From an uncultured Nitrospiraceae bacterium (GTDB lineage Bacteria; Nitrospirota; Thermodesulfovibrionia; Thermodesulfovibrionales; Dissulfurispiraceae), in the NCBI GenBank assembly GCA_903822005.1, contig CAIJNL010000030.1, positions 1 to 55,169 on the forward strand: a stretch of DNA of 55,169 nt, written 5' to 3'. The notes beneath the pieces are model-generated. The model was not told where the DNA came from, did no database searches, and saw only the letters and a list, made by a program, of their open reading frames with translations. Of the stretch, positions 19,732-49,500 are shown in pieces. The stretch's first letter is position 1. The number at the start of each line of letters is the position of its first letter. Position numbers and translations under genes: made by a program.

Positions 19732-20666
19732 TTCTTTTCACCTTCCTTTGAAGCCGAGTCAGCTACCTGATCGACCCAGGTGCCATCTTTCCTGATATGG
19801 GGAGCTGACCAGGTCATCTTGTAGTGCAGATAAGTCGCGATATCATTTTCCATGGCGCTGTTGCGCTTCATCATCTCGTCATCCCAGAGTATATGATGAT
19901 AGAAAAAATACTTTCCTACAAAATGCATCATCCTGCTGAATGGCAGATAGAGCAGGAAGGCACAGTAGGAGGTCAGCTGCAAAACGATCAGACCGCTTCC
20001 GACCGTGGGCATGCTGAAGCTCAGCAGACCCGCCACGTGGTGCCTGATCAGTGAAAATGATGAATCAGCAAAAATCCACGCGGAGAGCGATGAACCGAAA
20101 AGGAAGATCATAAGAGCAAGATTAACAAAACTCACCGGGTCGGAGAACAGACGCATGTCTTCATCCGCTATGCGGAGAACCAGCAGCACCAGGCTTCCGA
20201 AAAGGCCTGCTGCAAAGCCGCCTGCCCCGGTGATGATGACGCCAAAATGCAGAAAGCGGACAACTAATGACGACGCCCCTCCGCTGACCGCAATTCCGCC
20301 CAGCTCGCACAACGCGCTGACTGTCAGCAGGACGAGCCACAAGGCACCGAGATATATCCCGGCATGAAGAGGAAAACTCCCGAGCCAGACCTTCGGATTA
20401 TGAATATATGCCTTCTTGATGAAAAGCATCTCCTGGCTCATTTCTTTCAGTTCATGAAACAGCGAGAAATGCGGTTTGATCCCTGCAAAATCCACCTTCT
20501 GATACTTTGACCCTTCCGGTCCCTGATGAGGCACGGGATAGAGGTCCCAGCGCAGGTGTCGGGGAAGCTTCGCGTATTTTATAAATGTTGCCGCCGTCAT
20601 AAAAACAAAAAAAGCCGCGGCAAAATACATAAGTGGACCACCAATAAACCAGCCAACTGAACTCAT
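19728..20666 (-). CDS. Membrane cytochrome b subunit, DsrM/TmcC/NarI-like
   Basis: A 312-residue protein with one N-terminal membrane segment, a cytoplasmic loop (about 30-95), and a block of four or five membrane helices with spaced His residues (HAGIYL, RFLHFGVII, IRHHVAGLL, SRMMHFVGKYFFYHH) suited to heme b, as in nitrate reductase gamma subunits. The C terminus (SAPHIRKDGTWVDQV) is typical of HmeC/TmcC/DsrM-type proteins. It would pass electrons between the quinone pool and the HdrD-like subunit encoded immediately downstream with a 4-base overlap. A strong ribosome binding site (GGGGGGGTGA) precedes the ATG. No cytochrome c subunit (TmcA-like) is adjacent. Confidence 0.85.
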   Translation of the reverse strand: MSSVGWFIGGPLMYFAAAFFVFMTAATFIKYAKLPRHLRWDLYPVPHQGPEGSKYQKVDFAGIKPHFSLFHELKEMSQEMLFIKKAYIHNPKVWLGSFPLHAGIYLGALWLVLLTVSALCELGGIAVSGGASSLVVRFLHFGVIITGAGGFAAGLFGSLVLLVLRIADEDMRLFSDPVSFVNLALMIFLFGSSLSAWIFADSSFSLIRHHVAGLLSFSMPTVGSGLIVLQLTSYCAFLLYLPFSRMMHFVGKYFFYHHILWDDEMMKRNSAMENDIATYLHYKMTWSAPHIRKDGTWVDQVADSASKEGEKK

Positions 20667-21166: not shown

Positions 21167-22528
21167 TTATTTTACAGCCATCCAGTAGGCCTGGAATATC
21201 ACATTGGACAGCCAGTAGCCCAGCGGAACGTTGATAATGACTCCGATTGTAAATGCCGCCAGCGGTTTCCATCCGAAATTCATCAGATCGCGGAAACGCG
21301 TAGTAAGACCGATAGCAAGGAAGGTCCAGGTAAACGTCCAGCTCCGCAGAGTCTTGACGGTACTAAGCGCGTCCTTTGAAAAAGCTGAGCCGGTCTTGGG
21401 ATCAAGCATCATTATTACAACGGTCGCAAATATTGAAGCAATGAAGAACCCGATAACAAATTTCGGGAAACGGCGCCAGATCTGGGAGTAGTCTACCCGC
21501 TCAGACTCACCGATGCTTTTCTTTTCCCAGAGGGTAACGGAAAGGATGGCGGCCATAAGGGCCCACAATCCGATGAACATGTCACGTCCAACGACCTTCA
21601 TCAGCGTAAAGGTCTTTACTGCCGTATCATCCGCACCAGGCACCTGGGCCAATGCGTTGTACTGTGAGGCCGCTGCGAATCCAGCCGCGTCAGCGAATTC
21701 CGAGGTCCCAATCCATGCTCCGGCTGGTCCAGGGGCCATGCCGAGATGCATTGCCATGGGCGGCAGGAAGAGCACCATTGCTATTGCCCAGATGATTACC
21801 ATCGAGATGGCGATGGAAACATGCTCTTTTTCCGCCCTGCAGGCGCCGCCTACAGCTATAGCTCCGGAGACACCGCATATCGATCCGCCAGCTCCAAGTG
21901 TGGCGGCAAAACGGGGATCAAGCTTGAACAGCTTAGTTGCAGCAAGGTAGATTGCGAAAAACGTTACAACAGCAACAATAGTAGCCTGCATCATCGCCAG
22001 AGGTCCCGCGGACATGATGATGGTAAACGGCAGGGTTGCGCCCAGCAGTATGATACCGGTTTTAACATAATATTCAGTACGCAAGGCCTCTTTGAACCAG
22101 GCAGGCAGCGTACCTATATTGGCTATGAGCATTCCGAGCAGCAATGCCAGCACAGGAGTTTCGAGCTGCAGGTCTTTCATGTATTTATTAGAACCGAGAA
22201 TCGTTACTATAAGAGACAAAATAAACAGAACGGTAAACCCGGTCAGAAACCTCTGTGTATTGTAACCCATAACTTTTGCGCCAAAGGCAAAAGCCAAAAT
22301 GAAAAAACCGAACAGATATAAAATGCCCAATCCGCTTTTTGCGAGTGCGTCTGTTACTTTGCTGACGTCGTTCGACCATGTAGGCACATTAACTGCCATG
22401 GCCTTGAAGAATGCATACCCGCCGCTCAGGAACGTAAACGTGATCAGCAGAGTGAGGCCCAGGGCAATGATGATTGCCCAGGTGTCTTCTCTTTTGATCA
22501 GCGGCAAATCTGATTGTCTTACACCCAT
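21167..22528 (-). CDS. YeiH-family putative sulfate/sulfite exporter (UPF0324, PSE family)
   Basis: A 453-residue polytopic inner-membrane protein with about eleven hydrophobic segments. The family signature GAGGSICGVSGAIAVGGAC appears mid-protein, with ETPVLALLLGMLIAN upstream and GLTTRFRDL...WKPLAAF near the C terminus. This family (Pfam Cons_hypoth698) is annotated as putative sulfate exporter; transport of sulfite, sulfonate or a small acid is possible, and the true substrate is not established. The ribosome binding site AAAGGGGG precedes the ATG. It lies 65 bases after dsrC, with a hairpin between, and ends the dsr unit. Moving sulfite or another sulfur anion across the membrane therefore fits the context. 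Confidence 0.8.
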   Translation of the reverse strand: MGVRQSDLPLIKREDTWAIIIALGLTLLITFTFLSGGYAFFKAMAVNVPTWSNDVSKVTDALAKSGLGILYLFGFFILAFAFGAKVMGYNTQRFLTGFTVLFILSLIVTILGSNKYMKDLQLETPVLALLLGMLIANIGTLPAWFKEALRTEYYVKTGIILLGATLPFTIIMSAGPLAMMQATIVAVVTFFAIYLAATKLFKLDPRFAATLGAGGSICGVSGAIAVGGACRAEKEHVSIAISMVIIWAIAMVLFLPPMAMHLGMAPGPAGAWIGTSEFADAAGFAAASQYNALAQVPGADDTAVKTFTLMKVVGRDMFIGLWALMAAILSVTLWEKKSIGESERVDYSQIWRRFPKFVIGFFIASIFATVVIMMLDPKTGSAFSKDALSTVKTLRSWTFTWTFLAIGLTTRFRDLMNFGWKPLAAFTIGVIINVPLGYWLSNVIFQAYWMAVK

Positions 22529-28121: not shown

Positions 28122-28805
28122 TTACCTTTCCTCTTTAATGGTAAGTTTATTCCCCTTGGGAGCAGTCCTGCGCCCATTAACTGAATCTATCCTGTCAGCC
28201 ATCTGCAAAAGCCGGAAGTTGGCCCTTCTGGCTTCGTTGGCTTTGATTTCATATATTCTTTCCCTGCACTTCATGAAAATATCGAATGCTGAAAGCGTGA
28301 GGCCGTCAATCGCTGATTCAAGATCAGTAAGCTGCTGCGACAGCTGCCGGTCGGCCTGTTCCGCGCCAAGTTCCTCCCTGATTATCCGCTTCAATGAAAA
28401 GACAAATGAGAGTGACTGAGATGGAGCCAAATCCTGTACTGCCATTATGCGCACAATGCCGTCCAACAACTCTTCGTTTTTTGCTTTGAATGGGCTACTG
28501 AGAAGCCCTTCAAATATAGCTTCCAGCCCGCTGGATATGGTCGACCCTGTCGGGTTGGTGAATTGGTCGCCTTTGATTCTGAAATGGGTTGAGTTGCCTG
28601 AAGGGAAGCTCACCATAATCGCATCAAGCCATTTCGTGAGAATAGCTTTCTTTTTGTCCCTCAGTATTCTGCCAAGCGCAGTCCCTGCCGCTGCCCCTTC
28701 TTTTTGAGCTTCAGGGGCGTGACAGGCGGACTGCCCGCAGTTGTTCCCGTTGCCGGGAACAACTGCGGAATCCGAAAAGGCATTGGTATTCGTGGGGCGT
28801 GCCAT
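28122..28805 (-). CDS. RsbRD N-terminal-domain protein in the dsr operon
   Basis: A 227-residue protein encoded between dsrB and dsrM. Residues 50-200 match the RsbRD_N (RsbR N-terminal, globin-fold) family as I know it: LGRILRDKKKAILTKWLDAI, then NPTGSTISSGLEAIFEGLL, and a helical C-terminal half ending in SAFDIFMKCRERIYEIKANE. Similar genes are common beside dsrMKJOP in sulfate reducers, so a sensing role for Dsr expression or activity is plausible but unproven. Residues 1-40 are a low-complexity Cys-containing leader (NNCGQSACHAPEAQK), encoded partly by a perfect hairpin at 28735-28768. ATG 28805 is favoured because GGAAG lies 5 bases upstream; an in-frame extension into dsrB adds a CGGC motif. 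No STAS domain follows. Confidence 0.8.
   Translation of the reverse strand: MARPTNTNAFSDSAVVPGNGNNCGQSACHAPEAQKEGAAAGTALGRILRDKKKAILTKWLDAIMVSFPSGNSTHFRIKGDQFTNPTGSTISSGLEAIFEGLLSSPFKAKNEELLDGIVRIMAVQDLAPSQSLSFVFSLKRIIREELGAEQADRQLSQQLTDLESAIDGLTLSAFDIFMKCRERIYEIKANEARRANFRLLQMADRIDSVNGRRTAPKGNKLTIKEER
28735..28768 (-). other. Perfect 15-bp stem-loop in the dsrB-dsrM intercistronic zone
   Basis: CCGCAGTTGTTCCCG pairs with CGGGAACAACTGCGG around a 4-base loop (TTGC). It starts about 80 bases after the dsrB stop and lies inside the predicted leader of the RsbRD gene. No T-run follows, so it may be an RNA processing/stability element or a palindromic repeat insertion. Confidence 0.75.
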
Positions 28806-28848
28806 TACGCTTCCGCACCCTCCGCATGAATACCGTTCATTGCAATCA

Positions 28849-29913
28849 TTAGAACTTGCACTGTATCGTTGAACGGAATGTAGTTGTCGCATGTGTAAAA
28901 TCATCCACATGCTTGTCCGTAAACGGCAGGTTGGTCATTTTGAAGAATTTCTCCCAGCCGATACGGGTAATCCATTCGCCATAGCGTTCGCCCGGGCGTG
29001 CATTGGCTATCCAAACCTCTACCAGATTATTTACTGCCGCCGTGACGGTGTCCCAGCGGGGCGGCTCGTTCTTGATGTAAGGGATAGCCAGGCGTGAGAA
29101 TGCCGGACCACCTTTTGCGTTCGAGACCTTGCCTCCGACCCAGATCGAGACGCCGTCATTTTCGGGGTCCATGATCTGGAGGCCTGCCGGGCAGACGACT
29201 ACGCAGTTGCCGCACATCATGCATTTTTCAGCAATAATGTCGACGCTTTTGTCCTTGGGTCTCGGGCGTATGGCACCGGTCGGACATGAGGCAATGACGT
29301 TCGGCAGCTCGCAGGCGCGGGCAAGACCTTCATCATTGATCCTCGGGATGGTGCGATGGATACCTACGATTGCGATATCAGAGCAATGGCATGCGCCGCA
29401 CATATTTACGCAGCAGGCCACTGCAATGCGCAGGCGGGCAGGCACGCTTTTCTTTCCGGTAAAATAGTCCACCATATCATCCATTACTGCTTTGGTAATT
29501 CCGGAGGCATCTGTAACTGCGCTCTTGCAGTGAATCCAGCCCTGGGTATGGACCACGTTGCTGATCGAAAGACCTACTCCGCCGATCATATAGTCTTTTT
29601 TGTCCAGTTCATCTATAAGGGGCTGGAGTTTCTTCTCGTCGGAAACGAGGAACTCAAGATTGTTGCGTGTGGTAAACCTTACGAACCCTTCGCAAAACTT
29701 GTCGGCTATGTCGCTGATGTCCCTTATCCAGTCACTGCTCACAAGGCGCGGGGAGGCAACCCTGACGGAATGTATTACATCGCCGGTGCTGCTGGTATGT
29801 TTAAGAACACCCGGGCGGGGTATGTCATGCGATACCCACTTGCCGTAGTTCTTCTTGATAACCGGGGGGAGCATCTCCCTGAAATCGGGAGGTCCGAAAT
29901 CGTTCTTGGCCAT
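28849..29913 (-). CDS. dsrB: Dissimilatory sulfite reductase beta subunit
   Basis: A 354-residue subunit of cytosolic DsrAB, which reduces sulfite with six electrons and hands sulfur to DsrC. Expected features: [12 protein letters not shown] near the N terminus, [12 protein letters not shown], the siroheme/cluster cysteine region [17 protein letters not shown] (Cys167, 168, 172, 175, 177), and a ferredoxin domain [12 protein letters not shown] (Cys231, 234, 237, 241). The start ATG lies one base after the dsrA stop, with GAGGAGG within the dsrA tail. Length is normal. No dsrD follows; an RsbRD gene takes that place. Whether it is of reductive or oxidative lineage needs a tree. Confidence 0.98.
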
Positions 29914-29914
29914 A

Positions 29915-31099
29915 TTAGTTTACCTCCTCTTTCTTCCAGAATATATAAGGGTTGCTGCGGGGTGCACGCACCATCTGCGGCAGCGGCTTCAGGCCAATAG
30001 CATCGAGGAAATTCGCATATCCTAGACGGTCTATCAGTTCGCCTATGCGTTCGCGGTTCTTGCCGTTTTCAGCCCACCACTCGGTGATCTTCTCGAAAAG
30101 CTCTTTAAACTCGGTGTAAGGGGCCTCCATCTTGATAAAAGGAACAAGTATCCATCCTATCATCGAGCCTTTGACAACCGTGGCTTTTCCGCCTATGAGC
30201 AGGGTGGCCCCGCGCTCGCGGCCGATAGCTATGGCATCAGGCATCATATTGACGCAGTTCATGCAATGCACACAGTCTTCCGCAGAAACTGTAAGTTCTT
30301 TCTTGACGAGGTCATAGTTCAGGGCTTCGCTCGGGCATTTGCGTACTACACGATTGATGATGTCGTAGCCGCCGTCAACCATCTTGCGGACTTCCTTGTT
30401 GTCTATACGGATGCTGTCGCGCCATACTCCGATGACGGCCAGGTCTGAACGGGCCGATGCCGCGGCGCAGTCATTGGGGCATCCCGATACTTTTATCTTG
30501 AATTTATATGCCCACGCAGGCCTGTGTATCTCAGCCTGATACTTTTGAGTCAGGTCGCGAATGATGTCCATGCTGTCAATGCATGCCTTCTCGCAGCGTG
30601 CCTGTCCCACACAACATGCAAGACTGCGCAGGCAGCCACCCGATCCGCCAAGGTCAAAACCTACTTCAGAAAGCTCATCAACACAGGGCTGCAGGTTAGC
30701 CGTGGTCGTCCCGAGGAGAATAATGTCTCCTGTTGAGCCATGCATGTTGTACAAGCCGCTGCCATATTTGTCCCAGACATCAGCCAGCTGACGGAGTTTT
30801 TTGGTGGTATAGAAGAAGCCTGCCGGCTGGCATACTCTCACGGTATGGAATTCCTTCACATCAGGATACTTGTCCGGAAGATCGCTATACCGGCCGACTA
30901 CACCGCCTCCATAACCCTTTACACCTACGATACCGCCATGCTTCCAATGTCCTATTTTCTCTCTGTAAGAAGTTTCGAGCTGCTCCAATAAGCCCTGAGC
31001 GCTTTTGTTCTTCTTGGCTGCCCGCTTAATCTCGGTAACAAAGCTCGGCCAGTCACCCTTTTCGAGCTCGTCTAACAACGGGGTCTTTGCATCATCCAT
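29915..31099 (-). CDS. dsrA: Dissimilatory sulfite reductase alpha subunit
   Basis: This 394-residue catalytic subunit carries the siroheme-[4Fe-4S] ligands as CX5C (Cys163-Cys169 in [13 protein letters not shown]) and CX3C (Cys207-Cys211 in SGCPNDC). A ferredoxin domain is ligated by Cys255, 276, 279 and 282 (KCPSEAL, CVHCMNC). MHGSTGDI and GRYSDLP are conserved DsrA stretches. A textbook site AAGGAGGTAAGG precedes the ATG. The gene follows a 60-residue ferredoxin after 26 bases, so the ferredoxin is likely co-transcribed and may deliver electrons to DsrAB. It is slightly shorter than many DsrA proteins, but no core motif is missing. Confidence 0.98.
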
Positions 31100-31125: not shown

Positions 31126-31308
31126 TTAGTATTCGTCGACTTTAATAGCTTCCGACGGACAGACGCTGACGCAGCCCTGACAGCCCAGGCATTCATCCTG
31201 GCCCGCCACTGCCTTGCCGCCTTCCACTATGAATATCTGAGCCGGACAAGCGGCAACACATTCTCCGCATCCCGTGCAAAGCTCCTGATCTACGGTTACA
31301 ACATACAT
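31126..31308 (-). CDS. Two-[4Fe-4S] ferredoxin, first gene of the dsr unit
   Basis: A 60-residue ferredoxin with two complete CxxCxxCxxxC motifs: Cys11, 14, 17, 21 (CTGCGECVAACP) and Cys40, 43, 46, 50 (CLGCQGCVSVCP). GGGGG lies about 8 bases before the ATG. Only 26 bases separate it from dsrA, so it is the leading gene of the operon. It probably carries low-potential electrons for sulfite reduction or links the cytosolic flavoprotein at 33434 to DsrAB; the exact partner is unknown. Confidence 0.93.
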   Translation of the reverse strand: MYVVTVDQELCTGCGECVAACPAQIFIVEGGKAVAGQDECLGCQGCVSVCPSEAIKVDEY

Positions 31309-32117: not shown

Positions 32118-32283
32118 CCCTTAACATTATCATAAATACTTGGGGCTGTCAAGAGCTTTTTCCCCCATTAAAACCTTCACAAAAAAAGATCTTTTTTGCC
32201 CCCGTTTTCTGTTATAAATGACCCGTTTTACTATGCCTGGCCCGCATGTAACAGATGACGGACGGCATCGTAAAGTCTTTTAA

Positions 32284-32311
32284 AAAGCCCCCGTGCGCCC
32301 ACGGGGGCTTT
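32284..32311 (-). terminator. Rho-independent terminator of the rhodanese gene
   Basis: A 12-bp stem AAAGCCCCCGTG / CACGGGGGCTTT with a 4-base loop, 22 bases past the stop. On the minus strand it runs into TTTTTAAAAG, a proper T-tail. It isolates the rhodanese gene from the Fur gene. Confidence 0.92.
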
Positions 32312-32333
32312 CCCTGCTGATATTCAGAAAAGA

Positions 32334-33308
32334 CTATTTCTTCTGCCAGGGTGCCAGCGTAGTATCAGGACAGTCCTTTTCTATCGGCAACGAAGAGTCC
32401 TTCGACCATCCGATCCATGAGCTGTCGTAGTTGTGAATCTTGTCCATCGGCCAGCCCAATGCATACAGGGTAAAGATCCACTGGGTCGTACGTACGCCAG
32501 ACTGGCAATAGAAATATTGCTGTTTTTTGCGGTCCATACCCAGTTTCGTTATTACTTTCTGTACGTCCGCAGCGGGCAGAAAGTCACCATCTTTGCCCCG
32601 CACCAGCGCATAGTCAGCCTGCACACCCCAGGGGATTCGTCCGGCGCGGAAGGCCCCTTTGTTAATCTCTTTGCCGCAGAATTCGGCATCGCCCCTGTTG
32701 TCCCACAACTGGGCATCTTTCCTGTCCTTCAGCCCAAGGATTTCGGGAGTGTCAACCCTCTGTCTCGGATAGGTAACTTTGGCTACCCAAGTTCCGGATT
32801 TCGGATCACTGGGACTCAGGTGATCGGCTTCATATCCGGCCTTGGACCATGCCTTGTAGCCGCCGTCAAGCACGCGCACATCTGTCTTGCCGTAATAATA
32901 AAACGCCCACCAGATCCTGGTGGAGTCGTATTTGCTGTCGTATACAACAACCTTGGAATCCGGATTGACACCCAGTTTCTGCATCAACTTTGTGAAACCT
33001 TCGGGCTGGAGCAGATTATCGGTAACACCGCCCTGGGTGGCAGGGTCGGCCTCATAGTCCGGCCGCCAGATTTGGAAGGCCCCGGGAATGTGCCCAAGCG
33101 TATAATCGGCTTTGTGGGCAACTGCGATAACTACCAGCTTGGAGTCCTTTGCCTTTATGAGCTGATTGAGTTCCTGTACAGTTATGAAAACATCTCCTTT
33201 TGCATAACCCTTATACTTCTCGGCAGCGCCGGCTGTAAGGGCAAGGGCCAGGCAAGTAACCAAAGCCAGAACGAAGACCAGACTTTTTCTGCTAATGTTT
33301 TTTCTCAT
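32334..33308 (-). CDS. Exported tandem-rhodanese sulfurtransferase
   Basis: A 324-residue periplasmic protein with a Sec signal peptide (MRKNISRKSLVFVLALVTCLA, cleavage near AGAA). Two rhodanese domains follow. The N-terminal one (about 40-165) lacks the catalytic Cys (VVYDSKYDSTRIWW, with Asp124 at or near that position) and is structural. The C-terminal one (about 190-310) has Cys268 in YFYCQSGVRTT. It would move sulfane sulfur from thiosulfate or a persulfide in the periplasm. GAGGAGGAG precedes the start. It is monocistronic with its own terminator, and an 18-base palindrome lies about 100 bases upstream. Its position in the dsr block suggests a role in thiosulfate, elemental sulfur or polysulfide metabolism. 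Confidence 0.9.
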   Translation of the reverse strand: MRKNISRKSLVFVLALVTCLALALTAGAAEKYKGYAKGDVFITVQELNQLIKAKDSKLVVIAVAHKADYTLGHIPGAFQIWRPDYEADPATQGGVTDNLLQPEGFTKLMQKLGVNPDSKVVVYDSKYDSTRIWWAFYYYGKTDVRVLDGGYKAWSKAGYEADHLSPSDPKSGTWVAKVTYPRQRVDTPEILGLKDRKDAQLWDNRGDAEFCGKEINKGAFRAGRIPWGVQADYALVRGKDGDFLPAADVQKVITKLGMDRKKQQYFYCQSGVRTTQWIFTLYALGWPMDKIHNYDSSWIGWSKDSSLPIEKDCPDTTLAPWQKK

Positions 33309-33404
33309 ATCCTCTTCTCCTCCTCTTGAGATGATGCTCCAATTTAAGGCTTCACTTAAAGCGCCTTATCCATAATTGCGTGCTTCCGTTCAGAAAAGTC
33401 TTTA

Positions 33405-33422
33405 ATGGTGCAACTGCACCAT
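33405..33422. promoter_or_regulatory. Perfect operator-like palindrome upstream of the rhodanese gene
   Basis: ATGGTGCA-AC-TGCACCAT, two perfect 8-base arms with a 2-base spacer. Without a loop it cannot be a good terminator, so a dimeric repressor or activator site is the natural reading. It lies 97-114 bases upstream of the rhodanese start and just past the stop of the flavoprotein-HdrD gene. Confidence 0.6.
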
Positions 33423-33433
33423 CAATCGGCTTA

Positions 33434-36010
33434 TCACCTTGAGACAGGCACTTCACCTATCTTGCGAATGAGTTGCTTTGCCTTGTATCGATTAAGCCAG
33501 GCCCCTACAGGACTGCCCGACCGGCCTGGGAATACAGAATCAGATTTCCATGGACCGCCAAAAATAAGGTCGAGTATATGGAGCGCCTTCTTGCCGCCCA
33601 TTATCATCGATTCCCTGCAGGCCGCGCAATAGGTCACCATCACATCAGACTTCACTTCAGCTGTCCTGCGCTCCATAACGCGTTTGGCGAGTTTGGGGTT
33701 TGCCGGAACGACCATCCCGCCAAAGCCACAGCATCTTGTCTCTTCCCTGGTGTGCGGCGGCTCCTCAACTGCGTACCCCATGGTGTTCATGATCTGCCGG
33801 ATTCCATCAAAGATCTCTGGAACATCGCGGGTCGGGCAAGAGTCATGTATGGCGATGGTAAGATCGGAGCCGGCGCCTCGTCCGACCGACAATGTGGGCA
33901 GGCCTATCTCAGGAAGGACCTCCCACAGGGAGCGCACGCGCTGCTTTGGACTGTACTGCTTCATGGTCACATAGCAGGATTGGCAGGCCACTATAATTTC
34001 CTCAGCGCCGACCCTGTCAATTTCCTTCTGCAGCTCCGCATAGCGTTCCTTGAAGGCCTCGACCTGTCCCAATGCCTTTGTCGGCTTGCCGCAGCATTTA
34101 AGAATGGCCCCGGTACCGGGAAGGCGGTCTCTGAGATGGGACAGTATATTCCCGACAAGCGCGGGATTATATGACGGCAAACTGCACCCTGGTATAAATA
34201 CCCGCTTTGCCTTGCCATCGCCATTGCCCGATATTGTGGTATTGAAGAAACTCGAAAATCCGAGGGCCTGGTGAACATCGATGACCTTATGCCCTTTTAT
34301 CGGTGATTTGCCTTTATTCTCCTTCACCATCTGAATGCGCATATCCATGAATCTGTCCATCATCATGAACTCTTTGGGGCAGACCAGGGTGCATTGTTTG
34401 CACATGTTGCAGGAATATGGTATTAAAGGATCCGCATTCCCCTTCTCAAGTATGTTACGGAAGAGCTCTCCAGGGCAGGTAGTGAAGTCATTGAGCATCT
34501 CGCACTCTGCCATGCATTCCTTGCACTCACACTTGAAACAGCGCGAGGCCTCCTGAACTGCGACGGCTTCTTCGAACCCGAGATCAACCTCCGCAAAAGA
34601 GAGCAGCCTGTCCTTAACAGGAATCATGGCCGTACGCAATCTGGGCAGGTTGGTTTCTTTCGGATCTATTGTAGTTTCGAGCTTCGTCTCGTAACTGCCC
34701 TCGAGATCCCTACCGGAGAAGAGGTCCCTGTCTGTCAGGTAGCGGTCTATGGATTCAGCCGCCCGTCGCCCTTCCGCCATTGCTTCTATCGCTATAACAG
34801 ACCTGCCGGTGGCATCGCCGCAGGCGAAGATGTTCTCAATACATGTCTGCAGCGAAACCGGATTGACAGTGAATCGGCCGCCGGCGTGCTGGGGAATGAT
34901 ACCTCTTGGTATGCATGAACCGTCCACCAGCTGGCCAATCGCGAATATGACCGTGTCCACATCCTCGAAAACTTCGGTGACGCTGTCATCAAACCTCGGA
35001 CAGAATTCACCGAGCGGATCGAACACTGATTTGCAGGCCCTTGCCCTAAACCCTGTGACTTTGCCGTCCCGGCCAAGTATCTCGACCGGTCCGCGGCCAT
35101 TATGTATTGTTATGCCCTCAGCCTCGGCGTCTTCAACCTCCCAGGTGTGCGCCGGCATCTCTTCACGGCTTTCGAGGCAGAACATATGCACGTCAACCGC
35201 TCCCAGGCGTCTTGCTGTCCTGGCGGCGTCAATTGCCACGCATCCGCCACCTACAACAACAATTTTTTTGCCGATATCGGATCTCTGGTTCAGGGTCACC
35301 TCTCTCAGGAACCTGGCGGCGCTGACCACGCCACTCAGTTCCTTGCCCGGAATCGGAAGCATGTTACCTTTCTGGGCGCCTATCGCGACGAGCACAACAT
35401 CATACTCGGCCCGCAGGTCCTCAAAATATACATCCTTGCCTATCTCCAGCCCGAGTTTGAACTCGATACCAAGTTTGTAGAGCAGGCTGTATTCCTTGTC
35501 TATAATCCTTGCTGGCAGGCGGTACTCCGGAATGCCGACCCTGAGCATGCCGCCCACAATATTGAGCCGGTCATATATGGTAACCTTGTAACCTTTTCGC
35601 CTGAGATCAAGTGCGGCCTGAGCGCCGGACGGACCAGCCCCTATTATGGCAATATGCTGGGGCTTTTCTTCCGCAATTGAAAGATCCCAGTCTTCCTCAT
35701 TATCATAATTGTCCGCAACGAATCTCTTGAGCGCCGCGATCGATAAGGGATTTTTAAGTTCATTACGCTTGCATTTGTCCTCACATGGGTGTGGGCATAT
35801 CCTGCCGAGCACACCCGGCAGAAACAGGGTTTCCCTGACCCTGGAGAGGGCTTCTTTAAACCTGCCTTCACTGATCAGTCCGGTGTAGCCTTTTGCATCA
35901 GTATGCATGGGACAGGTGGCAACGCAATAAGCCGCTGCCTCTCCCATGCAGCCGTCTGCTATCTCCTTCATCTTGTCAAGGACTGTTGATGTAGTACTAT
36001 TGTCTTCCAT
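33434..36010 (-). CDS. GltD-like NAD(P)H flavoprotein fused to an HdrD-like CCG module
   Basis: An 858-residue cytosolic fusion. Residues 15-90 hold an N-terminal [4Fe-4S] domain (CVATCPMHTD, CPHPCEDKCKR) as in GltD/DsrL/PreT. Residues 115-450 are the two-domain flavoprotein (FAD: IAIIGAGPSGAQAA; NAD(P)H: VVVGGGCVAIDAARTA; FACGDATGRS). Residues 490-550 carry further Cys motifs (CFKCECKECMAEC, CNMCKQCTLVCP). Residues 600-830 are two CCG domains (PGCSLPSYNP, CCGKPT, CQSCY, HDSCPTRD, CCGFGG, CAACRE). It could oxidise NAD(P)H and reduce a disulfide, trisulfide or ferredoxin, possibly with electron confurcation. DsrL shares the first two-thirds but has no CCG module. It lies just upstream of the rhodanese gene. 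The partner is not known. Confidence 0.88.
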   Translation of the reverse strand: MEDNSTTSTVLDKMKEIADGCMGEAAAYCVATCPMHTDAKGYTGLISEGRFKEALSRVRETLFLPGVLGRICPHPCEDKCKRNELKNPLSIAALKRFVADNYDNEEDWDLSIAEEKPQHIAIIGAGPSGAQAALDLRRKGYKVTIYDRLNIVGGMLRVGIPEYRLPARIIDKEYSLLYKLGIEFKLGLEIGKDVYFEDLRAEYDVVLVAIGAQKGNMLPIPGKELSGVVSAARFLREVTLNQRSDIGKKIVVVGGGCVAIDAARTARRLGAVDVHMFCLESREEMPAHTWEVEDAEAEGITIHNGRGPVEILGRDGKVTGFRARACKSVFDPLGEFCPRFDDSVTEVFEDVDTVIFAIGQLVDGSCIPRGIIPQHAGGRFTVNPVSLQTCIENIFACGDATGRSVIAIEAMAEGRRAAESIDRYLTDRDLFSGRDLEGSYETKLETTIDPKETNLPRLRTAMIPVKDRLLSFAEVDLGFEEAVAVQEASRCFKCECKECMAECEMLNDFTTCPGELFRNILEKGNADPLIPYSCNMCKQCTLVCPKEFMMMDRFMDMRIQMVKENKGKSPIKGHKVIDVHQALGFSSFFNTTISGNGDGKAKRVFIPGCSLPSYNPALVGNILSHLRDRLPGTGAILKCCGKPTKALGQVEAFKERYAELQKEIDRVGAEEIIVACQSCYVTMKQYSPKQRVRSLWEVLPEIGLPTLSVGRGAGSDLTIAIHDSCPTRDVPEIFDGIRQIMNTMGYAVEEPPHTREETRCCGFGGMVVPANPKLAKRVMERRTAEVKSDVMVTYCAACRESMIMGGKKALHILDLIFGGPWKSDSVFPGRSGSPVGAWLNRYKAKQLIRKIGEVPVSR

Positions 36011-36086: not shown

Positions 36087-36782
36087 CTATACTTGGGTCC
36101 GGCCTTGTTTGCGGCCCTTAAGCCGGTTCAGAAGCACCGGAGAAAGAGCAAATATAGCCAATACGGCAAAGGCAATAATAACTTTCCCCGACAGCACTTC
36201 CGACACTGAATTGACAGATCCGATCTGACTGCCTGCAAAGGCAAACACAACAGTTCCTGGAACGATACCTACAGAGGTTGTCCATACAAAAGTCTTAAGC
36301 GGGATTTTGGTAAGTCCCGAAAGAAAGTTGATAAGGAAGAAAGGAAAAACAGGTATAAAACGCAGGGTAAGGAGATATCGCGGACCGTTCTGATTAAGCT
36401 CTTCATTAAACTTGTTCAACTGGCTGTGATATTTTTCCTGAAGCCGGTCGCCGACCAGATAACGGGCTGAAAGAAAGGCGAGAACCGCGCCGGCAGTTGC
36501 CCCGATGTTCACTATGACAGTAGCGACAGCTATGCCGAACAGAAACCCTCCGGCAAGGGTCAGGATAATGTCACCAGGAATGGAGAAGGCAGTTGCTATA
36601 ATGTAAAGGGATATGAACAGGAACAGAGATAAAATATAGCGGTCGTGCACAAACATTACGAGGAAGTCCCTGTTCTGCTTTAAGTTATCAAAGGTAAGGA
36701 TGTCACCCGCGGGCGAATAATGTAATAACAAAATTACCGCAATAAATATGATAAGCAGAATGATCTTTTTCTTCTTGCTGAT
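36087..36782 (-). CDS. TVP38/TMEM64 (VTT-domain) membrane protein, probable AUC start
   Basis: This inner-membrane protein of about 231 residues belongs to the DedA-related VTT family. It has an N-terminal membrane segment, AFSIPGDIILTLAGGFLFG (near residue 70), GATAGAVLAFLSARYLVGDRL, RFIPVFPFFLINFLSGL and a final helix. Family roles include lipid scrambling or metabolite transport and are not settled. No ATG, GTG or TTG reaches the expected N terminus. GGAGG stands five bases before an ATC codon that would give the normal KKKKIILLIIFIAVILLL helix. The nearest standard start (TTG 36731) would delete this helix and has no ribosome binding site. Either AUC is used or an ATG has mutated or been misread. 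Confidence 0.82.
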   Translation of the reverse strand: MSKKKKIILLIIFIAVILLLHYSPAGDILTFDNLKQNRDFLVMFVHDRYILSLFLFISLYIIATAFSIPGDIILTLAGGFLFGIAVATVIVNIGATAGAVLAFLSARYLVGDRLQEKYHSQLNKFNEELNQNGPRYLLTLRFIPVFPFFLINFLSGLTKIPLKTFVWTTSVGIVPGTVVFAFAGSQIGSVNSVSEVLSGKVIIAFAVLAIFALSPVLLNRLKGRKQGRTQV

Positions 36783-42600: not shown

Positions 42601-43582
42601 GCATTATCTGGCGCACCGCGAACTTGCCATCCTTGTCTACGGGCACCGGCAGCCCGAGCGCCTTTACCTTATACCCTTTTGGCACTTTTTTACCGTCGAC
42701 CGTGATAGTACCTCCCCGTACAGGGATGTTGCCCACAACCCGGCTGTTCTCGCCATACCCGATAAGAGATTCGCGTTCAGGACTCTCCTCATCCTTCATT
42801 GGAGTGCGGTTAGCGACGAATTTCAGTTCTTTTGGAGAAGTCTCATCGAACCTGCCCTTTTCATCGTATACACGCAGCAGATAATAGATGGTCTCCGGTG
42901 TGCCTGCCGGGGGAGACCATACAACGCGCTCATTGATATTGACCTGTACTGTGGCAATCGGGGCCTGCTGAATCGTCTTGCCCTTTTCGAATATCCTTAT
43001 CTCGGCCTTGCGTACCCAGAGCGCATAGTTCGAATAGGTGAAAAAGCGGACTTTCGCAGCCTTCTGCGCCGCATTTGGAGTAGTCCAGACATTTAATGCA
43101 GGGCGCACCACGAGCGGATCATAATAGACCCGTATGTCCGCTTTTTCGAGTGCCACATCAACGCAGCGCTGCCGGTCCGCCTCTCCGCGGCCCGATTTCT
43201 CGGCGTCGAGCGGCACCCCGTCGATGGTAACACGCATCGGCATATATTCGGGCTTCTGATTCGGACCGCACGAAAGCTCTGTCTTCCCTGGTGCAACGGG
43301 CTTGACAGCAGTTGCATTGCCCTTCACATCACTTGGCACTCTGACCGGCATCTCCTTCTCCGAACTCGGCGGGGTCTTGAGACATCCGCTGCACTCGGTT
43401 GTGCTGTGGTCAAAGATCTTGCCGCGTATTCTTGCTGAACGCTCTCTTTCATCGATCTGTTGAACGGATTCAGTGCTGAAGACCGCGTCGCCTGCAAAGA
43501 GCCCGCAGGGCAAGCTGATCGTACATGCCGTAAACAGAACTGCTTTCCCGAAGACCCTGAGACTGCGGCATTTATTTGTCAT
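39638..43582 (-). CDS. Large outer-membrane beta-barrel protein paired with the giant repeat protein
   Basis: A 1,314-residue protein with a signal peptide (about 1-30, LFAGDAVF). An N-terminal periplasmic part of about 400 residues includes ECSGC and Ig/carboxypeptidase-like segments (VRGGTITVDGKKVPKGYKV, RNISIPDNDFFFVGLIDIT). A porin-like region with many alternating beta strands then runs to the end (GVFVNAIGAF, terminal Phe as in outer-membrane proteins). Residues 850-915 form a Lys/Gln/Ala-rich disordered insert (KKNVPQTSAGGNKAQPQEKD), probably an external or periplasmic loop. Its start overlaps the previous gene by 11 bases with GAGGTG as ribosome binding site, so the two proteins are made together and probably form one surface complex. 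No TonB box or plug domain is evident. Confidence 0.82.
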   Translation of the reverse strand: MTNKCRSLRVFGKAVLFTACTISLPCGLFAGDAVFSTESVQQIDERERSARIRGKIFDHSTTECSGCLKTPPSSEKEMPVRVPSDVKGNATAVKPVAPGKTELSCGPNQKPEYMPMRVTIDGVPLDAEKSGRGEADRQRCVDVALEKADIRVYYDPLVVRPALNVWTTPNAAQKAAKVRFFTYSNYALWVRKAEIRIFEKGKTIQQAPIATVQVNINERVVWSPPAGTPETIYYLLRVYDEKGRFDETSPKELKFVANRTPMKDEESPERESLIGYGENSRVVGNIPVRGGTITVDGKKVPKGYKVKALGLPVPVDKDGKFAVRQIMPAGPHSVEVLLRDEKDNGASFRRNISIPDNDFFFVGLIDITAGYRSTSGQANIVTQDSDNYSKKEYIDGRGAFYLKGKIKGEYIITASADTREQPVQNLFRNLDSKDPQYLLRNIDPNRYYPVYGDDSTITDDAPTQGKFYVKLEKGDSYVMWGNFKTQWTGTELTQYSRGLYGLNVMIKPDSTTQFGERTTQINAFAAEPGTIASREEFRGTGGSLYYLRNMDITQGSERVWVEVRDKDSGFAIERNQLAPAQDYEINYLQGRIVLRSPLPSTADGSTLVMTSMLNGNPVYMVVTYEFVPGMTALSDLAYGLRGTQWVGDYLRLGLTGYQQGEEAARQRLYGTDLMLRYKPGTWVKGEFARSEGPGTTTLTSITGGFDFNQQQGRNGKANAYRVEGAIDLSEIWSREKGRLTAYWQNREAGFSAPGQVAFSNEATEQIGGSAQISLTKTTTLVAKLDWRDSASQTYSAGELNVKQQITDEVSVSVGARIDERTTRIANASPLLSDNGARTDAIFRVDYRPVIKKAQVPAGAAKANSSEASTDQAAADKKNVPQTSAGGNKAQPQEKDKTTVKQKDGEVKKTDDAKMPDLVYAPWNIYGFVQETLTRTGNRPENDRYGIGGGWQITPRLKAGAEISTGDGGLGGKLLGDYKIDDRSNVYMTYTNETDRPDMQFRGRIGSLVLGSGYKISKEVRLYDEVKSVNGAGPDSLVNTFGIDYAPTDRWTFGFKGEMGTISDPLAGDLKRKAGGLSVAYKFDKTKYASALEYRDESGTNGHRSTWLMKNAFGLQLDPSWRVLTKLNFSFSDASQGAFYDANYLEFVIGAAVRPVRNDKLNALLKYTYFMNEPSPSQVSSGGLIVDYAQRSHVFSVDAIYDLLPWLSIGVKYGLRIGELSQPKVSDTWYSSVADLMVGRIDLHFIKEWSGIVEVRRLTVYEAHDSRSGVLVGLYRQITKNLKIGAGYNFTNFSDNLTDLSYRSRGVFVNAIGAF

Positions 43583-46500
43583 GACCGATCACCTCTTCTT
43601 CACACGTGAGAGGGTAACGGCCCTTGCGGCTCTTCCATGCATCTTCGAGTATGCGTCGAACGGCCCGCATCCTGTCGTTAACCAGAGCGGGCGGTTCTTT
43701 GCCGGCCCTGTATGCGATCCTCGCAACTGTGGGCCTGTCTTCCATCTTTTTGTCCAGACCACGCACCTTTGCTTCCCACTGTTTCAGTAGTTTGGCCGAG
43801 CCCTGTTCGAACGCGGCATCGGTCAGTTCAATGCGGAAAACGCGATGCACTGCCGCTCCAAAGTTCATTTTTACCATCTTGCCGCGCGTGATCCTGACAG
43901 TCAAAGGATTCTCCGTAGTTATGCGATAGCCCGACGGCAGGGTCCTCTCATCGAGTTTGAGCAGGAAGTTTGAACCGCGGTCCGCGTTCGGGATCTCCGG
44001 ACATGGTATGTGGAAGCGGCCTTCGGAATCCGTTGTAATCAAAAGACCTCTTACTGTAGCGAGCCTCACATTTGCAATACCCGGTTCGCCTTCGTCCTGG
44101 TAGCCGTTGCTGTTTTTATCATCGAATACCTTGCCGATAATGTCCGGACAGTCGAAAGTCGTGTCAGGAATGACCCTTACCGTGGCCTTGGCTATATTGG
44201 ATACCATCGCGTTGGCTATGTAGTTGAGCGCCCAGGCCTGGTTGGTATATTCCCCCTCTGTAACGCCCGATCCGACAACAAGAATCATCCTGAAGATCTT
44301 CTTTTCGCCTGCGGCAAAGGTAAGATTGCTCCATGTCATGGTCCTGCCCGTGATCGCCGGCTCAGCCGCGACGCCATTTAGGTTTGCGCTGCCGGTGCGG
44401 TATCTGAAACCGGGCGGTATGATATCGACAAGATTGATATTCGGAATCTGGGCTGAGAGTGTGTTTGTGGCCTCTATGGTATATGGAACCAGATCGCCCC
44501 GCGTAACATTGATCAGGGGCGTCCTCTTGATAACTATAATCGCGCCGCCCAGTATCGGATCAACGGGTATGTGGTTGTTCACCACGCTTGCCGTGGATGC
44601 GCTCATTGTAAAACTGAGATAATATGTCGTGGGCTGTGCCCCGCTTGGCGCTGTTGCCTGGGTCTGTACGGCATACGTCGGCCCGCCCGGCACCGTAAAA
44701 GGTCCGCTGGTTGCCGGTATTATGCCTGAAGGCCCCTGCACATACCCGATTGGCGGAGTAACGCTTATGGCATACACGCCTGCTGGCGCACCGGCCAGCA
44801 GCAGGTACTGGTAGAACCCGTCAGAACTTGTCACCTGTGTTGCGTTCGCCACTCCTCCGAGAAGTTGAGTCGCGGGATTAAAGCCGCCCGGTCCTGTAAG
44901 CCTGACCGTTGCGCCGCTGACCGGCAGCCTGGTGACCGCGTCGTAGACCACGCCGGAGGGATCAACCGGCAAGTTCTGATTGATCACGTTGCCGCCTGAA
45001 CGCAATACCATATTTGCTATGGTCCTGGCGCTGTAATCCGGCGTCGAGTCCGTATAGCCTGGATCCTGCGACACCGGCGTCCCATAAAGAGCGCTGTTGG
45101 ATGTGTGACGGAAGCGCAGCTCATAGCCGCTGCCGGACGGCAGACCTGAAATCGTCCATGTGCCGTCGGCCGCAGTAGTAGCAGTGCCCAATACCGCATT
45201 GCCCTGCACAGCCTCAACACGCCAATTCAGCAGCCCGGGTTCGCCCGGCTGCCTGGTCTGATCACGGGTAATACTGTTGTACCAGACTGTGCCGCTAAAA
45301 CTTCCCGTCAGACCTGTCCTCTCACCAAACAGGTAGCCTGTGCCCGCGGTGGCTATGGGCAATGTAATGGAGCTTATGCGGTTTTGGGCGGCTGCAGAGG
45401 TAAAGCTGGCATTATCTACAGTACCGGGAGGATTTCCGGGAGATTCACGGCCATCCTGATAGATGATCGGCTGGGTTTCCGTCAGGGTATAAACACCGCT
45501 GTTCAATCCAATGAACTGATAACTTCCGTCCGCCGCCGTTGTGGTGGTACGGTTAGCGGACCCTGAGAGGGTAATGGTCACACCGGCTATTCCGCTTTCT
45601 CCTCCATCCATGCTGCCGTTATCATTGACATCATGATAAACGAAGCCTCTCAGGCTGGAGGCGTTTTCCCGGAAGTTGTAGTTGATACCGCTCGTCCCTG
45701 AGCTCACTACGATTCCAGTAACCTGGTTCAGGGCGGCCGTGCCCGTCGGTGTTCCATTAACTGTGCCAATCTGAGTGCCCGAGTTTCCGGGATAGTCGCC
45801 AATGCCCGCCGGCTGGGATTCCGTGAGAGTGTATCCCGCAGCATTAGAAGGACGCAAGCCCGTGAAAGAATACGTGCCGTTAGCAATCGTCGCAGTGCTC
45901 AGGCTAACTGCAGCCCCCTGATCATCGGTGCCCGTCAGCGTAATGGTAACACCAGGCAGCTCTTCTCCTGCGTCATAGCTGTTGTTGTTGTTGAAATCAT
46001 GGTATACCCTGCCGCTGATGCCGCCTGACAGCACTTCGCCGAAGTTGAAAGCTGCAAAAGCACTGGCGGCATTAAAAGGAATGGCGCTGATCACATTGGC
46101 AACAGTGGTATTGCACCCGGCGCAGGCAACCCCGTTGACAGTGCCTTTTGATAATTTGCCATCTAGATAGGCTGATGGCTGGGTCTCGGTGATGCTATAC
46201 CCGGAACCGTTGGCGTTACGAAGACCGGCAAAGTTGTAACTGCCGTCCCCAATGGTTGTTGTTGTACAACTGGGAATTGTTGCGCAGATATTGGAGCCCG
46301 AAGCCGTAGTGCCGGCTGTGGTTGTACGGTCGGCATAATCAACGGGTTGGGACTCGGTGAGTGTATAGCCCGCTCCATTACTGGCAGGCAGTCCGGTAAA
46401 GCTGAAGCCGCCGTCCGCTGCCGTGGTAACCGAGCAGGCCGGATATACGCCGGCCATAACCGTACATACATTGGCGCCACTCGAGGTAATACCGGAGAGG

Positions 46501-49500
46501 GCAATGGTCACCCCTGCAATGCCTGCATCGATTCCGCTGTTGTATGCTCCGTTATTGTTTACATCAAGGTAGACGCGACCGCTGATAGAGCCGCCCTGCT
46601 CACCGAAAAGATAATCCGAACCGACCTGACCTGTTGCGATAACAATTCCGGTGATTACATCATTGCCCGCATTGCCGGTCGGAATTCCCGCAACCGTTCC
46701 GCGGCTGTCTATACCGTCGGTGTAGTTGGTCAGGGGTGCGATAGCCTGGGACTGCTCAGTCAGAGTATAGCCGGATGCGTCACTGGCAGGAATATTCACA
46801 AAGCTGAATGCGCCGCTCGAATCAGTGACGACATTACAGCTGGCAATATACCCGCAGACGGAACCGCCAGCCAGGGCGGTCCCTGAAAGCGTAACCGTTA
46901 CGCCGGGAATGCCCGGCTCTAATGGGTCCTTTAATCCATTGTTGTTCAGGTCCACATATACAAAGCCGCCGAGCACCGTTCCCTGATGACCAAAGTTATA
47001 GTTCTGCAAAGAACCGTTTGACAGTATGGCAATAGTCTGCACATACTGGGTGAGGACATCGCTGCCTGCTGTGCCGGCAGGAGAACCTGAACCGGTGCCA
47101 ACCTGCGCACCGGTATGGGTAAGTCCGGCGGGTTTTGTTTCTGTGACGCTATATGTGCCGGGCAGCAGATTTGTGAAACTATAGCCACCACCCGCGCCGG
47201 TCGTAGTAGTCGTTGGTCCGACTGTTGCACTCAGATAATCCGTACCTGTCAGGGTAATCGTAGCCCCGGGAACGCCGACAGTTTCACCTGCATTCTTCGA
47301 CCCGTTTCCATTGGTATCAATATAGGAATAGCCGGAAATGCTTGCATAGCGCTCCTCTCCAAAATTGTAATTGCTTGCAACGCTGCCGAACACGAGTACA
47401 AGATTCTGCACCTGATTGACTGTAGGGCCGCCTGCAACCAGGTTGCCGGCAGCTGACCCGCTGCCGGTAACAGTGCCGACACTCGTTCTGCCGGGCTGGT
47501 ATGCACCCGGCTGGGTTTCAGTAACGGTATATGTTCCGGAACGCAGGCCGGAGAATTTATAGCTGCCCGTGACACCGCCCAGGGTACTGGTGGTAGTAGT
47601 ACGATTGACTGCTCCCAGATCGTCTGTCCCGGTAAGAGTAATTGTAACTCCGTTGATTCCGGTATCACTGCCATTGATAATGCCGTCGCCGTTCAGGTCC
47701 TCGAACACCCTGCCGGAAAGTGTCGCCTCGGGCAACTCGCCGAAATTGTAATTGATACCGTCTATATGCGCTCCCAGCGCGATGGCAGAAATAGAGGATG
47801 GAGTGACCGCAACAACGGTCGGAGTGCCGCCTTCGCTGCCTGCTATTGTCTTGCCGTTAACGGTGTTGGCCGGCTGGTTTGGTTGGGTAATGGCATATGA
47901 GCCTTCCGGCAGGCCGGAAAACTTGTAGCTGCCGCTGACACTGCTCAGTGTACTGGTGGTAGTGGTAAGATTGATTGCCTGGCCGTCCCAGGCCGGTCCG
48001 GACAACGTTATGGTGACTGAGTTGATGCCGGTCTCTGCCCCGTTAATGGTTCCGTCATTGTCACTATCGGTCCAGACCCGGCCGGCCAGACTGGAGGAAT
48101 AGACCGTGATGGTTCCGCTTTTAATATTGTTGTTCGTTCCCAACGTGGCTGAATTTATGTCGAGGGAGGTGGTGGCAATGGTCGCCGTGTTCGTAAAAGA
48201 ATCACTTCCGCTGCTGGGGGTAGTAACAGCGGTTACCCGAACGGGTACGGTGATGGTCCCTGTGGCCCCGCTCGAAACTGTGCCCAACGAACAGGCAAAG
48301 CTTATGCTGCCCGCCGCGCCGGTGCATGTTGTTAGCGAAAAACTTCCGCCCGTAACAGCGACGGTCGGCGTTGCCGTCAGCTCCATATTGGCAGGCAAAC
48401 TATCGGTAACGGTTACGTTATCGGCCTCGGCCAGTCCCGCCCCGCCGTTGTTGCGTACCGCAATCTTCCATATAAACGGACGCCGCAGACCGATCGTAGG
48501 TATATCCGTTGTATCACCGCTATCTCGCGCTGTTTTAGAGACCACTTCAGGATCTGCCTTGGTTCGCACAGTGGTATCCTCGGTCACCGTATTGTTACCA
48601 GGAATAGGATCGTAGCTTGCATTTGCGCGAGTCTCTGCAGAAGATACCGTCACAGTGTTGTTGGTTATACCCTTTGCAGCGCCTGTCATTATTATCGTGA
48701 CTTGTTTATTGGTGCCTGAGGTGAGATCGCCCAAAGAGCAGGTCACCGTGCCGCCGGAAGATCCCACTGTCCCGCCGGAACAACTTCCCCCTGCGGGCGG
48801 CGTGGCGCTGACAAAGGTCAGTTTGCTGGTCGGCAGCGTATCCACAATCTGCACATCGGTGGCATAAGACGGGCCGTTATTAGTAGCTCTGATCGTATAG
48901 GTTACATTGTCGTTAACGGCCACCGGATCGGGACTGTCGGTCTTGTTAACCAGCAAGTCATGGGACGGAGCGGTAAGTGTCGTGGTGGTTGATGCACTAT
49001 TATTACCGCTGTCCGTTTCTGTCGTGGAGGTACTCACTGCCGCATCGGCCTGGATTATTCCGGGAAACGCGGTCATGGTAGGCCGGACGACAATAGTCAC
49101 AGTCTGGGTCGTTGTATTGCCCGGAGAAGGCAGCGGCAATGTACCCAGATTGCAAATAACAGTCTTATTCCCCGTTGTGGTCAACGTTCCAACAGTCGGG
49201 GTCGTTGAGCAGCTTCCGGCAGATGGGCTGGATGAAAGAAAGGTTACACCATCCGGAAGCGTAACAGTCGCAGTGACATTATCCGCTGCGCTTACTCCCC
49301 GGTTGATAGCAGTCGCCACATATGTCAGACTCGCGCCAACCTGTACCGGGTCAGGGTTGTCAGTAATAGTTACCGTTACATCACTGCGCTGATCGACAGT
49401 TGAACTGACTGTGTTGCTGGTATTGTTAGAGATATTCGGATCGGCAACATCTGCAGAAAAGACGGCAGCACTATTGGTGCGCGGGGTGGTGCCGTTGGGC

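Follow-up and report, generated by a model that had tools for sequence, protein, structure and literature searches.

A gene for a flavoprotein joined in one chain to HdrC- and HdrB-like parts lies close to the dsr genes on a contig of an uncultured Nitrospiraceae bacterium (CAIJNL010000030.1; the 55,169 nucleotides analysed are referred to as the window and the genome as G000). This location raised the question whether the encoded protein takes part in sulfite reduction and, if not, which reaction it might catalyse.

Domain Organization and Conservation of the Fusion Protein

The fusion gene opens with an ATG and forms an intact reading frame, in which the following features were assigned:

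33434..36010, minus strand: single-chain flavoprotein/HdrCB fusion, 858 amino acids (ORF list, profile search, homologues, AlphaFold2 model)
35696..35974, minus strand: Fer4_20 (GltD/NfnB-type Fe-S domain), residues 13-105 (Pfam, alignment)
34769..35656, minus strand: FAD/NAD(P) two-dinucleotide-binding domain, residues 119-414 (Pfam, structure match)
35171..35176, minus strand: Leu-Glu, residues L279-E280, at the position of the YRR motif of NADPH-dependent relatives (alignment, YRR rule of PMC7596348)
34379..34540, minus strand: HdrC-like double [4Fe-4S] segment, residues 491-544 (alignment)
33974..34186, minus strand: CCG module 1, residues 609-679, five cysteines with spacing 29-0-35-2 (Pfam, alignment)
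33617..33838, minus strand: CCG module 2, residues 725-798, five cysteines with spacing 34-0-33-2 (Pfam, alignment)

The bounds of the reading frame were exactly 33434 and 36010, and Pfam matches were found with Fer4_20 (1.3e-25), Pyr_redox_2 (5.1e-29) and, over two stretches, CCG (9.6e-13). In an alignment of 26 homologues, C21, C29, C33, C72, C76 and C80 of the Fer4_20 domain were invariant. All ten cysteines of the CCG modules (C609/C639/C640/C676/C679 and C725/C760/C761/C795/C798) were kept in every aligned homologue covering the position (n = 26). On the same basis, nine of the ten cysteines of the HdrC-like set (C491-C544) were invariant, the exception being C512, which was present in 22 of the 26 homologues and replaced by Tyr in four. 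A chance or mis-joined reading frame was ruled out by full-length homologues at 43-72% identity. The architecture proposed in a preliminary description of the locus, a GltD/DsrL-like dehydrogenase joined to two CCG domains with complete cysteine sets, was thus borne out by the Pfam matches and by conservation.

The order of GltD-like, HdrC-like and HdrB-like parts in one chain is already known to annotators. The best NCBIfam match of the fusion, at 523.4 bits, was NF045663; its score stays below the curated cut-off of 530, which the relative L070 passes. The fusion, being close to NF045663, adds a member to a family of enzymes that is described but uncharacterised. No biochemically characterised member of this family was found in the literature, and no assigned function was found there for NF045663, for ydjX/ynjE or for clusters of TVP38 and rhodanese genes.

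Structure Models and Nicotinamide Specificity

A full-length AlphaFold2 model of the fusion had a pLDDT of 88.2 and a pTM of 0.69. The predicted fold of its N-terminal half matched NfnABC (9bov, Z 47.8), StnC, NfnI and GltD. As the GltD half filled the structure search with the whole model, the C-terminal half was modelled (pTM 0.81) and searched separately. The predicted fold of this half resembled EtfD (Z 20.3), LutA (Z 19.3) and HdrB (5odc_B, Z 15.9; 8rvy_B, Z 16.5); unrelated entries in the same search had Z values of at most 6, except 3kwl at 15.6.

In NfnB and DsrL-2, a YRR motif binds the phosphate of NADPH and confers NADPH use, while DsrL-1 enzymes, which lack YRR, prefer NADH (PMC7596348). 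At the same place in the fusion, where the second strand of the NAD(P) domain ends, Leu-Glu was invariant in all 26 members of the window clade. Since this pair replaces YRR, the fusion is predicted to use NADH, by a motif rule that was tested in DsrL. The electron donor had been given earlier as NAD(P)H; a nicotinamide donor still fits, and the cofactor should probably read NADH. YRR was present in a distant branch at 37-39% identity (L070-L073), the enzymes of which may use NADPH.

Relation to the dsr Genes

The fusion gene shares its strand with dsrA, lies about 2.3 kb upstream of it and had been placed "in the dsr block." The intervening and flanking sequence contained the following features:

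36087..36731, minus strand: TVP38/TMEM64 (VTT, DedA-superfamily) membrane protein, YdjX homologue (profile and homology search)
33402..33425, minus strand: terminator-like hairpin directly 3' of the fusion gene (z -3.8)
32334..33308, minus strand: two-domain rhodanese, predicted to be secreted (signal-peptide-like N-terminus), YnjE homologue (profile and homology search)
32282..32313, minus strand: strong terminator hairpin 3' of the rhodanese gene (-27.7 kcal/mol, z -5.0)

Adjacency to the dsr genes is correct, but two terminator hairpins separate the fusion from them, and the hairpin at 32282-32313 parts the rhodanese, fusion and TVP38 genes from fur, a 60-aa ferredoxin and dsrA. The proposal that the fusion confurcates with the ferredoxin encoded at 31126 is unsupported, as that gene adjoins dsrA and is cut off by the two hairpins and fur.

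Gene co-occurrence across genomes led to rejection of a dsr linkage. Among the relatives of the window genome, dsrA was found in 139 of 150 genomes including G000 (138 of the 149 others), but none of these 149 encoded a full-length fusion. Conversely, only two of 27 genomes carrying a window-type fusion had dsrA above cut-off (G000 and G418), and in G418, the one other dsr-bearing genome of this type, fusion and dsrA were on different contigs. A DsrC-family protein, with which co-occurrence had been set beforehand as a check, was above cut-off in only three of the 27 (G000, G418 and the Enterovibrio genome G436), and that of G436 is probably TusE. In the distant branch, dsrA occurred in seven of eight genomes, but on other contigs than the fusion. 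Moreover, the window encodes a complete dsrMKJOP and a DsrC with a near-C-terminal cysteine, so that no DsrC reductase is missing. These results indicated that the fusion is not a dedicated partner of sulfite reduction. The suggested reduction of DsrC trisulfide by a cytosolic counterpart of DsrMK is contradicted by the occurrence of the same protein mostly in organisms without dsr genes, an outcome named in advance as one that would refute it; the more general idea of a soluble electron wire from nicotinamide to a disulfide fits the domain anatomy, but its DsrC-specific role does not stand.

Several other features of the window were recorded. A second DsrK/DsrM-like pair (18115-20666) adjoins dsrC and dsrMKJOP; next to the dsrMKJOP of G418 there is a comparable pair (54% and 33%). 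A gene between dsrB and dsrM (28122-28910) codes for an RsbRD N-terminal-domain protein; a 41% match to it in G079 adjoins a DsrM-like gene. Homologues (31-34%) of a transporter gene situated between dsrC and the second DsrMK-like pair (21167-22528) occur beside the fusion in L069, L071 and L073 of the distant branch. At 43572-51680, a 2702-aa reading frame is followed by a 1314-aa one on the same strand. Identity of the window's DsrA (29915-31099) to its counterparts in genomes of the same family, and in several of the same order, was just 53-58%; the DsrA proteins of those relatives, including the same-genus genome G001, were mostly 70-93% identical to one another. From these identities, the dsr block of the window itself looks horizontally acquired.

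Distribution and Origin of the Fusion

A full-length fusion was detected only in G000 among the 150 genomes of its family and order, and again only there among 395 genomes of its phylum; in G014 and G023 the match was confined to the GltD part, inside 1492-aa reading frames. Full-length relatives occurred mainly in Clostridia and Fusobacteria, with one in Enterovibrio and one in a deltaproteobacterial MAG, a taxonomic range that is a lower bound because the contig scan for homologues used two peptide patterns only. The system was carried by about six of 391 genomes of the class Clostridia and by nine of 395 genomes in the phylum of G418, eight of the latter with the distant branch. In a phylogenetic tree, the window protein paired with that of the MAG (L014), and this pair was nested inside a Bacillota/Fusobacteriota group. 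This nesting, together with the absence of the fusion from close relatives, indicated that the gene was most likely acquired by horizontal transfer. An empty insertion site could not be read, since the dsrAB loci of relatives share no flanking genes with the window.

A Cassette Related to the ydj/ynj Genes of Escherichia coli

In the window, the fusion gene is separated by 126 bp from the rhodanese gene and by about 80 bp from the TVP38 gene, all on the same strand. Both genes adjoin the fusion in Ilyobacter and Cetobacterium too. Across 37 fusion loci, a rhodanese was encoded within 3.5 kb of the fusion in 26 and a VTT protein within the same distance in 29, and some loci contained rhodanese-VTT gene fusions. 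Many loci of Firmicutes and Fusobacteria also contain genes for a CDP-alcohol phosphotransferase and for an ABC transporter (solute-binding protein, two permeases and ATPase); these stood beside the fusion in about half of the loci.

These cassettes resemble the ydjXYZ-ynjABCDEF genes of E. coli in carrying homologues of YdjX, YnjB, YnjD, YnjE and YnjF, with weak matches to YnjC, whereas the E. coli cluster has no fusion inside. YdjY and YnjA were rejected as counterparts of cassette genes, as no homologues of either were found in the fusion loci at E 1e-4. The rhodanese, fusion and TVP38 genes of the window thus form a ydj/ynj-like cassette. In E. coli, the ydjXYZ-ynjABCD operon and ynjE are directly activated by FNR, i.e., under anaerobic conditions (PMC3688515).

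The cassette varied in its parts. In about half of the loci, many from Clostridia among them, the HdrB part was a separate gene directly following, which supports the reading of the fusion as GltD-HdrC plus HdrB. In Clostridium sp. ZS2-4 (L037:9938-11111), the same cassette contained the HdrC and HdrB parts and lacked the GltD domain. The electron donor module therefore appears exchangeable, and NADH is not the sole possible donor. An Enterovibrio HdrB gene (L034:11775-12514) was apparently shortened by a frame change near its end. In L071 (7974-9008), cysteine is absent from the active-site loops (LYSHNGLP) of the rhodanese encoded next to the fusion homologue, so that rhodanese catalysis may be dispensable.

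Proposed Function and Alternative Explanations

The reading that we prefer, and to which we give an even chance of being correct, is that the fusion is the electron-input enzyme of this mobile rhodanese/TVP38 cassette and catalyses NADH-dependent reduction of a disulfide or persulfide. The GltD-like FAD domain would oxidise NADH, and electrons would pass from FAD through cubane clusters, of the GltD type and then of the HdrC type, to two non-cubane [4Fe-4S] clusters of the HdrB type, which would reductively cleave an S-S (or S-Se) bond of a disulfide or persulfide that is either small or bound to a protein. The sulfane sulfur or chalcogen compound that is to become the substrate would probably be captured and moved by the secreted rhodanese and the membrane protein. 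In HdrB, paired non-cubane clusters cleave the heterodisulfide homolytically. Because every cysteine needed for such cleavage is retained, a disulfide, persulfide or selenodisulfide is the most economical substrate; both the cluster content and this chemistry are what we infer for the fusion. That its partner is a rhodanese suggests sulfane sulfur or a similar chalcogen species. Sulfane-sulfur transfer is, however, not assured, because YnjE acts poorly on thiosulfate and 3-mercaptopyruvate (PMC10215317) and the L071 rhodanese lacks the catalytic cysteine. A role in the cassette is also countered by a Clostridium subclade (L024-L026 and G706) in which neither rhodanese nor TVP38 is found near the fusion, and by the window genome itself, which has no ABC transporter: a YnjB query for a YnjBCD-type transporter gave no match in G000 or G418, in a search that included no positive control genome.

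A role in arsenic or selenium redox metabolism, in which the enzyme would keep products of ArsS-type radical SAM proteins and methyltransferases or thiol-bound As or Se species reduced, is a real rival, although we judge it unlikely. In the 37-39% branch the fusion adjoins ArsS, TIGR04169, TIGR04282 and TIGR04283; the L014 flank holds ArsS and an MduS-like methyltransferase, and that of L015 a LysR of selenium metabolism (above cut-off) and YedE-like genes. NF045663 was named for proximity to selenoproteins, candidate selenoprotein genes occur near L013 and L014, and the L013 flank encodes a C-GCAxxG-C-C protein; near the window fusion, a family search, with UGA read-through outside its reach, recognised no selenoprotein gene. 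The rhodanese of the window shows a weak match to ExtH of selenite/tellurite operons, and a link of DedA to selenite uptake is cited in PMC10470534. A metalloid role is nevertheless not the common denominator, because most carriers among the Firmicutes and Fusobacteria have no ArsS, which excludes it as an obligate partner, and SelD had no match in five of 35 carriers. The SelD-less carriers include the near-closed G706 and G757 and the 5.5-Mb Enterovibrio genome G436. As SelD was found in 30 of the 35 carriers and also in 29 of 30 non-carrier relatives, selenophosphate dependence, being neither required nor discriminating, was rejected. In the window genome, moreover, ArsS is encoded on another contig than the fusion.

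Flavin-based bifurcation or confurcation that links NADH with ferredoxin and a disulfide, in the manner of Nfn/StnABC and HdrABC, has little probability. The closest structures to the N-terminal half are subunits of the bifurcating NfnABC and StnC, and a 2[4Fe-4S] ferredoxin gene lies nearby. However, this fold is also found in non-bifurcating enzymes of the GltD type, the fusion contains only the GltD/NfnB-like type of subunit, the conserved cassette has no NfnA-, HdrA- or ETF-like partner, and the nearby ferredoxin belongs to the dsr side. Similarly improbable is a cytosolic NAD(P)H:DsrC-trisulfide reductase, possibly coupled to ferredoxin. Its position upstream of dsrA, the near-C-terminal cysteine of the window DsrC and an HdrB-like site that could take a disulfide or trisulfide would suit such an enzyme. 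Yet a DsrC-family protein above cut-off is lacking in 24 of the 27 window-type genomes and dsrA in 25, 138 dsr-bearing relatives have no fusion, G418 keeps fusion and dsrA on separate contigs, and in the window terminators intervene and dsrMKJOP is intact.

If the preferred disulfide or persulfide chemistry is true, a single soluble chain would link catalysis of the HdrB type directly to NADH, and would do so outside methanogenesis and sulfate reduction. A wider proposal, which we regard as possible but doubtful, is that ydjXYZ-ynjABCDEF of E. coli is one variant of a chalcogen-handling system that is widespread among anaerobic bacteria but has gone unrecognised. In such a system, a transporter, secreted rhodanese and TVP38 protein would import a sulfane-sulfur or selenium compound or pass it on, and an HdrB-type enzyme that depends on NADH would reduce it in the cytosol without membrane or DsrC. 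The analysis removes a tempting but wrong assignment to dsr, to which the operon neighbourhood of one genome had misled. It also places NF045663 together with the orphan ydj/ynj genes of E. coli in a common, testable setting of an NADH-driven HdrB-type reductase, a secreted rhodanese and a DedA-superfamily protein.

Comparison with Known Systems

Two CCG modules and the fold of the C-terminal half (Z 16-20) are common to the fusion, HdrB/HdrD of heterodisulfide reductase, LutA and EtfD. Both five-cysteine sets are complete in the fusion, as expected for non-cubane clusters from the ligation known in HdrB, whereas EtfD has C-T-G in place of the first CC motif. Unlike HdrB/HdrD, the window protein is fused to an NADH flavoprotein and has no HdrE or HdrA partner.

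The fusion shares the fold of its N-terminal half and the FAD and nicotinamide sites with DsrL, NfnB and GltD, and GltD-type enzymes have this fold without bifurcation. It differs from these proteins in lacking the YRR motif and a cross-genome link to dsrAB. To our knowledge, CCG modules are absent from DsrL and NfnB; the DsrL chain ends with a C-terminal ferredoxin domain, whereas in the fusion two CCG modules follow the ferredoxin segment. DsrK of DsrMKJOP is, like the C-terminal half of the fusion, a CCG-type Fe-S protein of the HdrD superfamily, but identity between the two was just 28% across 98 residues, and DsrK has one CC motif rather than two and DsrM as its membrane partner. The closest likeness is with NF045663, "pyridine nucleotide-disulfide oxidoreductase/dicluster-binding protein" (diclust_near_Sec), most of whose profile is covered and whose single-chain order of GltD-like, HdrC-like and HdrB-like parts is shared by the fusion, with NADH-type Leu-Glu in the window clade as against YRR in L070-L073.
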